NCBI RefSeq assembly: GCF_900114455.1
Contig: NZ_FOTC01000003.1
Span: 184,124-248,123 of the forward strand
Source: Halogranum rubrum
GTDB lineage: Archaea; Halobacteriota; Halobacteria; Halobacteriales; Haloferacaceae
DNA: 64,000 bases
Direction of reading: 5' to 3'
The notes under the pieces: model-generated
Seen by the model: only the letters and a program-made list of their open reading frames with translations
Database searches by the model: none
What the model was told of the DNA's origin: nothing
Shown here: piece by piece, positions 44,202 to 45,880 of the stretch
How the letters are laid out: each line of letters opens with the position of its first letter
How positions within the stretch are numbered: position 1 is the first letter of the stretch
Position numbers and translations under genes: made by a program

Positions 44202-44582
44202 CTACTCCTTCGAAGCACGTCGAACGCCCCACAATCGACCGTCTCGCTGCTCGATGTCGAATCCGAGCGACGCGTAGAACGGTCGTACTCCTTCGTCGAA
44301 GTCGACCGTGAGCGCACCGTCGACGGCCGCCGACGCTGCATCGACGAGCGCCCGCCCGATACCGCGCCCGCGACGCTCCTTCTGCACGGCGATGGCGTCG
44401 ACGTGAGAGCCGTCGAGGACGAGCGCACCGACGACTCGGCGCTCTCTCTCACTCTCGGCGACGAACACCGCCCCGTCGTCGATGCGGTCTCCGACGACGC
44501 TCGCCTCGGCTTCGAGGACGGCCGCGTCCAGCAGACGCATGACGGCGACGAGTTCGTCTGTAGTGGCCGGACGAACCGACAT
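44202..44582 (-). CDS. GNAT family N-acetyltransferase
   Basis: 126 residues from ATG 44582. The acetyl-CoA loop is KERRGRGIGRALVDAA, with the preceding strand HVDAIAVQ and the C-terminal FYASLGFDIEQRDG pattern. Target unknown (small molecule or protein lysine/N-terminus). Its ATG overlaps the samp2 stop (TGATG), so translation is coupled to the ubiquitin-like modifier. A GTG one codon upstream lies inside samp2 and is less likely. Confidence 0.85.
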   Translation of the reverse strand: MSVRPATTDELVAVMRLLDAAVLEAEASVVGDRIDDGAVFVAESERERRVVGALVLDGSHVDAIAVQKERRGRGIGRALVDAASAAVDGALTVDFDEGVRPFYASLGFDIEQRDGRLWGVRRASKE

Positions 44583-44815
44583 CACCGACTCTCAGAACCG
44601 TCGGGCGACGACGCTGACCCACCCTTGATGAGACGAAGCACCTTCACGTGGTCCGTCTCGACTCGTTGGTCTTCGGGGACGGGGCGGCCGTCGACGAGAA
44701 CAGAGACCTCGTGCGGGCTGAGGTCGACAGCGGCCAAGAGGTCGGCGTAGGTCCCCTCAGAACCGACAGAAACCTCGTGGCGCTCCTCGCCGACGACTTC
44801 GACAGTGACGTCCAT
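44582..44815 (-). CDS. samp2: SAMP2-like ubiquitin-fold modifier with C-terminal extension
   Basis: 77 residues. The first 66 match the SAMP2 small archaeal modifier closely ([11 protein letters not shown] start, [18 protein letters not shown] middle, VLRLIKGG end). SAMP2 is activated through its terminal Gly-Gly, joined to lysines of target proteins and also serves in tRNA thiolation. Here the frame runs on past GG for 11 residues, [11 protein letters not shown], before TGA. So the product is a precursor needing proteolysis, or the tail blocks conjugation. It is divergent from rfcA, 93 bp apart, an arrangement I recall from Haloferax. Confidence 0.88.
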
Positions 44816-44908: not shown

Positions 44909-45880
44909 ATGAGCGAGGCCGAGGATTCGTCGCCGGGCCGAGAGATTTGGATCGAGAAGTACCGACCGCAGACGCTCGACGACGTGTACGGACAGGAAGA
45001 TATCGTCGACCGACTGGAGAGCTACATCGCCCAACACGACCTCCCACATCTCCTCTTTGCGGGACCGGCCGGTATCGGCAAGACGACGTGTGCGACGGCC
45101 ATCGCCCGCGAAGTCTACGGCGACGACTGGCGCGGCAACTTCCTCGAACTGAACGCCTCCGACGAGCGCGGAATCGACGTCGTCCGCGACCGTATCAAGA
45201 ACTTCGCACGTGCCTCCTTCGGCGGCCACGATTACCGAATCATCTTCCTCGACGAGGCTGACTCCCTCACGTCGGACGCCCAATCCGCCCTGCGCCGGAC
45301 GATGGAGCAGTTCTCGGACAACACCCGTTTCATCCTCTCGTGTAACTACTCCTCGAAGATCATCGACCCCATCCAGTCGCGGTGTGCGGTGTTCCGCTTC
45401 GCCCCGCTCTCGGACGACGCGGTGGCCGGACAGATTCGGAAGATAGCCGACCGTGAAGGCATCGAGATGACCGACGAGGGACTCGACGCACTGGTCTACG
45501 CCGCCGACGGCGACATGCGTCGCGCCATCAACTCCCTACAGGCCGCCGCGACGACGGGTGACGTCGTCGACGAGGAGGCCGTCTACCTGATTACGAGCAC
45601 CGCTCGTCCCGAGGAGATAGAGTCGATGGTCACCGCGGCCATCGAGGGCGACTTCGCCCAGGCACGCTCGAAACTCGACACACTCCTCACGGACACCGGG
45701 ATGGCCGGCGGTGACATCATCGACCAACTCCACCGCGGTGCGTGGGATTTCGGACTCGACCAGCGCGCGACGGTGCGCCTGATGGAACGCATCGGCGAGG
45801 CCGACTACCGAATCACCGAAGGCGCGAACGAGCAGGTGCAGTTAGAGGCGATGTTGGCATCGCTGGCGCTGGACGAGTAG
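44909..45880 (+). CDS. rfcA: Replication factor C small subunit
   Basis: 323-residue clamp loader AAA+ subunit. Walker [10 protein letters not shown] (about 51-59), Walker B FLDEAD, sensor 1 [11 protein letters not shown], the arginine-finger SRC motif ([11 protein letters not shown]), and a C-terminal collar domain. It loads the PCNA clamp at primed sites. Starts at ATG 44909, giving the usual short acidic N-terminus before EIWIEKYRP. No intein, although this gene carries them in some haloarchaea. Confidence 0.95.

Follow-up and report, generated by a model that had tools for sequence, protein, structure and literature searches.

SAMP2 is encoded with residues beyond its Gly-Gly in Halogranum rubrum and many other haloarchaea, probably as a precursor matured by JAMM1

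Activation by E1 requires a free Gly-Gly, as established for Haloferax. In Halogranum rubrum, the Gly-Gly of the small modifier SAMP2 is not free as translated, being followed by 11 further codons. The locus lies in the stretch of 64,000 nucleotides from contig NZ_FOTC01000003.1 that was analyzed as a whole (the window), and it raises the question of how a usable SAMP2 is obtained from such a gene. We consider it likely that SAMP2 is made as a precursor and matured by the protease JAMM1, as happens with ubiquitin precursors and fusions. The locus comprises the following features:

44582..44815, minus strand: samp2 open reading frame including its stop codon, 77 amino acids (translation; Pfam SAMP2 PF21965, E 7.3e-32)
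44618..44815, minus strand: SAMP2 core of 66 codons, ending ...VLRLIKGG (translation; dN/dS well below 1 against two other Halogranum species)
44585..44617, minus strand: C-terminal tail of 11 codons after the Gly-Gly (other tails stand at the equivalent place in two other Halogranum species)
44582..44584, minus strand: samp2 stop codon, TGA
44580..44584, minus strand: TGATG, the samp2 stop overlapping the GNAT ATG (overlap common to 3/3 Halogranum genomes)
44580..44582, minus strand: ATG start codon of the GNAT gene
44202..44582, minus strand: GNAT acetyltransferase, 126 amino acids, ATG start (Acetyltransf_7, E 1.5e-11; in Haloplanus part of an in-frame SAMP2 fusion)
44909..45880, plus strand: divergent upstream neighbor, putatively the replication factor C small subunit, RfcS, by similarity (context; tree marker)

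On the minus strand the junction reads GGT GGG TCA...AGT CGG TGATG, and translation bore out the sequence-only reading of a 66-residue core ending in KGG, an 11-residue tail and a TGA overlapping the GNAT start codon; that reading had left the strand unstated. The assembly containing the window has an identical samp2 sequence. The PF21965 profile covers the SAMP2 core over residues 1-63 of 63, with KGG following the beta-grasp core as residues 64-66. A Gly-Gly that is free as translated is a property of the model member of the family and is not demanded by the profile, which stops before the tail, and the tailed Halogranum protein belongs to the SAMP2 family. A search of the whole assembly found no second SAMP2 copy. 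The genome also encodes two SAMP1/SAMP3-like proteins that terminate at Gly-Gly (FPPVSGG and FPPVAGG), and the tail is therefore peculiar to SAMP2 in H. rubrum. A UbaA-type E1 is encoded as well, and an E1 was found in all ten genomes checked. A scan for bacterial-type promoters and terminators, a scan type ill-suited to archaea, gave no signal. Elsewhere in the genome, a ThiS-like protein (L280, G000:C6:1472046) has a Cys-Cys end in place of Gly-Gly and possibly belongs with the CC-ending halobacterial group of ubiquitin-like (Ubl) proteins described previously (PMC2948915).

When the SAMP2 C-terminus was tabulated in 159 haloarchaeal genomes, residues beyond the Gly-Gly were found in 68 of them, so that the encoding of SAMP2 as a precursor, first proposed for this one gene, extends widely, and the tail cannot be taken for the oddity of one strain. 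Short tails of 2-17 amino acids occur in 45 of the 159 genomes. All three Halogranum genomes in the sample have a tail, 6-11 residues long and different each time; those of the two other species, RSAHED and APCPHEDTVE, are unrelated in sequence, and every one of the three terminates in the TGATG overlap with GNAT. Alignment with close relatives, which had been suggested as a check, thus recovers the tail throughout Halogranum but not a conserved tail sequence. The Gly-Gly itself is kept in 190/190 SAMP2 loci examined, with or without a tail, and in the tailed Halogranum species purifying selection acts on the SAMP2 core (dN 0.06-0.12 and dS about 0.55 among the species compared; dN 0.16 and dS 0.59 in Haloplanus). 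The family survey found essentially one SAMP2 copy per genome, so the tailed or fused gene is all that the cell has. A separate, free SAMP2 that might rescue the tailed one was considered, and none was found in that survey.

Other genomes carry an entire enzyme beyond the Gly-Gly. In-frame SAMP2 fusions to an AhpC/TSA redoxin occur in 12 genomes (AhpC-TSA E ~1e-17), from Halorussus (L009, L011, L013, L014, L018, L022, L034) and three genera of the Haloferacaceae (L105, L198-L200, L202), and the occurrence of these fusions in separate families implies more than one origin or transfer. An in-frame fusion to GNAT is present in 11 genomes, all of them Haloplanus (11/11 sampled; L171-L181), a genus assignment that rests on three plasmid matches at 100%. 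In six of these 11, the stretch from KGG to the GNAT domain contains no ATG, GTG or TTG, and the acetyltransferase is thus apparently made there only as a SAMP2 fusion. The AlphaFold prediction for one Haloplanus fusion comprises two confident domains, with pLDDT below 50 solely at residues 62-67, the KGG junction, which is hence likely to be exposed. Redoxin and GNAT, the two partners found fused, also follow samp2 in the order samp2-redoxin-GNAT in many relatives, and this conserved three-gene order may link SAMP2 with redox stress. In Haloferax, Haloprofundus, Halonotius and others, samp2 and GNAT are separated by a stand-alone redoxin homologue, and in genus g12 the redoxin is found inside open frames of 385-486 amino acids, perhaps fused to GNAT. 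In Halobacteria, GNAT arCOG04721 has been described before as a neighbor of arCOG00535 (PMC2948915).

Most genomes of the Haloferacaceae encode two Prok-JAB proteins, and here we use the name JAMM1 for the JAB protein that resembles Pyrococcus JAMM1. The H. rubrum candidate is encoded at G000:C6:1164094-1164540, away from samp2. It matches the PfJAMM1 structures 5ld9/5lda with an E value of 1e-7 and AfJAMM with 0.05, whereas its JAMM2-type paralogue matches Archaeoglobus AfJAMM, whose group includes HvJAMM2, with 2e-18; judged by these similarities, the candidate goes with PfJAMM1 rather than with the AfJAMM/JAMM2 group. The JAMM motif Glu...His-x-His-x7-Ser-x2-Asp is present (E-V-C-G ... HSHPDTPARPSAAD) and is preserved in the JAMM1 group as ExCG...HxHPx6SxxD; desampylase activity of the H. 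rubrum copy is predicted. The genome encodes two further JAB proteins, one of the JAMM2/AfJAMM type and one an E1-JAB fusion. The latter (L213, on the 99.7-kb contig G000:C10) is a single long frame with an E1-like (ThiF) domain and, at the C-terminal end, a JAB domain, resembles the Nmag_0356 type of Natrialba magadii (PMC3403918), and is by its domains an additional candidate Ubl-processing enzyme.

The distribution of JAMM1 across the haloarchaea is informative about the tails. Within the Haloferacaceae, JAMM1 is absent from genera g8, g11 and Halonotius (g13) and from two near-complete g23 genomes; outside the family it is absent from Haloarcula, Haloarchaeobius, Halovivax and two other lineages, in which a family-profile search found no JAMM1 and did find JAMM2-type proteins. 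Three Haloarcula carry an extra, different JAB. Among near-complete genomes (at least 90% complete, those outside the Haloferacaceae being counted as complete because no estimate is given for them), a tailed or fused SAMP2 occurs in 0/20 without JAMM1 versus 67/135 with it (Fisher p 4.5e-6); at the level of genera, tails occur in 0/9 versus 22/43 (p 0.007). JAMM1 is encoded in every tailed genome but one, a Haloplanus with a fused SAMP2 (G077), from which it is probably missing because that genome is 79% complete.

We also followed both characters on trees, using a SAMP2+GNAT+RfcS supermatrix with a genus constraint as well as unconstrained and FastTree versions. In many genomes the RfcS gene is interrupted or not adjacent to samp2, and RfcS alone was unusable as a marker; in several (L084, L231, L238 and others) its matches end near residue 120, which suggests an intein or insertion at that point, while the window copy is uninterrupted. 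On these trees, which are approximate, being built on short genes, we reconstructed about 19-22 changes in the tail and 7-8 in JAMM1 (about 21 and 7 on the supermatrix), and correlated evolution of the two was supported by likelihood ratios of 17.7-19.1 (p 0.0008-0.0014, three trees; supermatrix 17.7, p 0.0014). When independent evolution was simulated, 2 of 4000 runs ended with no tail on any JAMM1-less tip, and scoring the extra Haloarcula JAB as JAMM1 left the result unchanged. This suggests that the presence of a tail depends on JAMM1, phylogenetic correction included. The co-distribution is a statement of dependence and says nothing of direction or catalysis; perhaps JAMM1 can be lost only from genomes whose SAMP2 has no tail. 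No tail is present in 68 of the 135 JAMM1-bearing genomes, so JAMM1 must be retained for other reasons.

Several other explanations of the tail can be weighed against these observations. The chance that a sequencing or assembly error created the read-through is negligible, given tails in 3/3 Halogranum and 68/159 genomes and fusions in 23; as a candidate it was ruled out by the tails of both other Halogranum genomes, each with the same TGATG overlap. The sequence-only reading had offered a blocked SAMP2 or, alternatively, a new control point at which a protease regulates sampylation by removing the tail. A tail that hides the Gly-Gly from E1 would have such an effect, and the protease removing it could be regulated, yet the tailed gene is the sole SAMP2 copy, its Gly-Gly is invariant, its dN/dS is far below 1 and a UbaA-type E1 is present, all of which makes a permanent block improbable. 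Tails wholly different between sister species are unlike a conserved regulatory element, and their divergence even within Halogranum fits routine trimming better than regulation. We regard both the block and the switch as very unlikely.

Trimming by some activity other than JAMM1, whether a general carboxypeptidase, another JAB protein (JAMM2 type or E1-JAB) or the proteasome, is somewhat easier to entertain and still improbable. The two further JAB proteins of H. rubrum are available for such a role, and the lack of conservation among tails is what a protease of low specificity would allow; however, JAMM2-type proteins persist in JAMM1-less genomes where tails never occur, the big folded GNAT and redoxin fusions require an endoprotease cutting at the Gly-Gly, and HvJAMM2 is reported to be inactive alone (PMC4895103). 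Of these alternatives, we would give most room, though still with considerable doubt, to the idea that the tail serves to bring the samp2 stop codon onto the start codon of GNAT for termination-reinitiation coupling, with cleavage then repairing the protein. Overlaps of this type couple translation in Haloferax (PMC6728339), and the tail ends by overlapping the start codon of the next gene in 3/3 Halogranum species and in 6/7 sampled genomes of the Halorubrum-like genus g21, which is probably Halorubrum. Against this, Haladaptatus, Halomicrococcus and genera g6 and g20 have a tail-less overlap straight after the Gly-Gly, most short tails elsewhere do not end at a GNAT start, and the overlap is about as frequent without a tail (19/91) as with a short one (12/45), so samp2 and GNAT can overlap with no tail at all. 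The earlier suggestion that the tail arose for coupling therefore retains its footing in Halogranum, where the tails do reach the GNAT ATG and coupling is plausible, but not as a general explanation of tails.

Maturation by JAMM1 would proceed in a few steps. Halogranum SAMP2 would be translated as a precursor in which a tail of 6-11 residues hides the C-terminal Gly-Gly; JAMM1, a predicted stand-alone Zn-type JAMM/MPN+ protease encoded elsewhere, would cut exactly after the Gly-Gly; and the E1-like UbaA could then adenylate the mature 66-residue SAMP2, readying it for sulfur transfer and sampylation. Identical maturation would free SAMP2 from SAMP2-GNAT in Haloplanus and from SAMP2-redoxin in Halorussus and others. 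As in a ubiquitin-type precursor, H. rubrum has residues beyond the Gly-Gly and, in the same genome, a candidate Gly-Gly-specific protease. HvJAMM1 cleaves linear SAMP fusions directly after the Gly-Gly (PMC4443979, PMC4048286); in a SAMP1-MoaE fusion the cut falls precisely there, and in vivo it needs both jamm1 and the Gly-Gly (PMC4443979). With tails and fusions confined to JAMM1-bearing genomes as well, the JAMM-type tail remover put forward in the sequence-only reading stands as the best candidate, shorn of the regulating role it had been given. The precursor coding, the fusions, the co-distribution and the conserved Gly-Gly and JAMM motif are direct observations; from these, the published JAMM cleavage chemistry and the probably exposed KGG junction of the model, we infer that SAMP2 is a pro-protein cleaved in these species by JAMM1, constitutively rather than as a form of regulation.

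If JAMM1 already cuts after the Gly-Gly of SAMPs, loss of the samp2 stop would for that reason be tolerated, which would account for the repeated appearance of tails and fusions, the free drift of tail sequence and the lack of either in JAMM1-less lineages. A progression from stop loss to full fusions with downstream genes would be harmless wherever JAMM1 exists. We would extend this, with reduced confidence but still on the favorable side, to the proposal that SAMP2 is an obligate pro-protein in many haloarchaea and in two genera forms the N-terminal portion of a precursor of two proteins, SAMP2-GNAT in Haloplanus and SAMP2-redoxin in Halorussus, JAMM1 being, beyond a desampylase, the required maturase that fixes 1:1 synthesis of SAMP2 and an acetyltransferase or redox enzyme.

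It is already known that archaeal Ubl precursors are processed and that JAMM proteases cleave linear SAMP fusions, and the SAMP2-GNAT neighborhood has been described as well (PMC2948915). The literature covered by our search, mostly outside subscription papers, yielded no description of SAMP2 tails, of SAMP2-GNAT or SAMP2-redoxin fusions in haloarchaea or of the dependence of tails on JAMM1, and prior mention is possible. In the model species SAMP2 ends at its Gly-Gly as translated, which has left SAMP maturation little considered in haloarchaea. Precursor processing is a hallmark of eukaryotic ubiquitin systems. If JAMM1 does make SAMP2 in about 40% of the sampled haloarchaeal genomes, such processing would also be common in an archaeal system that is E2/E3-less, and the repeated gains of the precursor form would amount to many natural experiments. 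The supply of SAMP2 would be tied to neighboring acetyltransferase and redox genes, and 1:1 synthesis fixed by JAMM1 would be the archaeal counterpart to fusions of ubiquitin with ribosomal proteins.

SAMP2 of Haloferax volcanii (HVO_0202; PF21965) is alike in family, KGG core end and GNAT neighborhood; in contrast to Halogranum, SAMP2 stops at the Gly-Gly without a tail in 11/15 Haloferax genomes sampled. Eukaryotic ubiquitin precursors and ubiquitin-ribosomal protein fusions likewise place the modifier at the N-terminus, before a tail or partner, and free it after the Gly-Gly, but they are processed mainly by cysteine DUBs, and SAMP2 is not a close ubiquitin homologue. In Caldiarchaeum subterraneum, CsUb-pre, a pro-ubiquitin with nine extra residues, is cut by CsRpn11, and CsSAMP precursors are cut by CsJAMM (PMC6043591, PMC5654768). 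The two systems share a short propeptide after the Gly-Gly and a JAMM-family processor, a predicted one for SAMP2; Caldiarchaeum differs in belonging to another lineage and in having cleavage demonstrated in vitro, whereas the unconserved tails and full enzyme fusions of haloarchaeal SAMP2 are known from sequence. The Ubl-Cgi121 fusion of Thaumarchaeota (PMC2948915) also joins an archaeal Ubl to a conserved partner, but Ubl and partner differ from those of the SAMP2 fusions. Linear fusion at the SAMP Gly-Gly is seen again in engineered SAMP1-MoaE and in natural Ubl-MoaE fusions, and JAMM1 cleaves the engineered protein, also inside the cell (PMC4443979). MoaE is a functional partner of SAMP1, whereas no such partnership with SAMP2 is known for GNAT or redoxin, and the SAMP2 fusions are native haloarchaeal genes.
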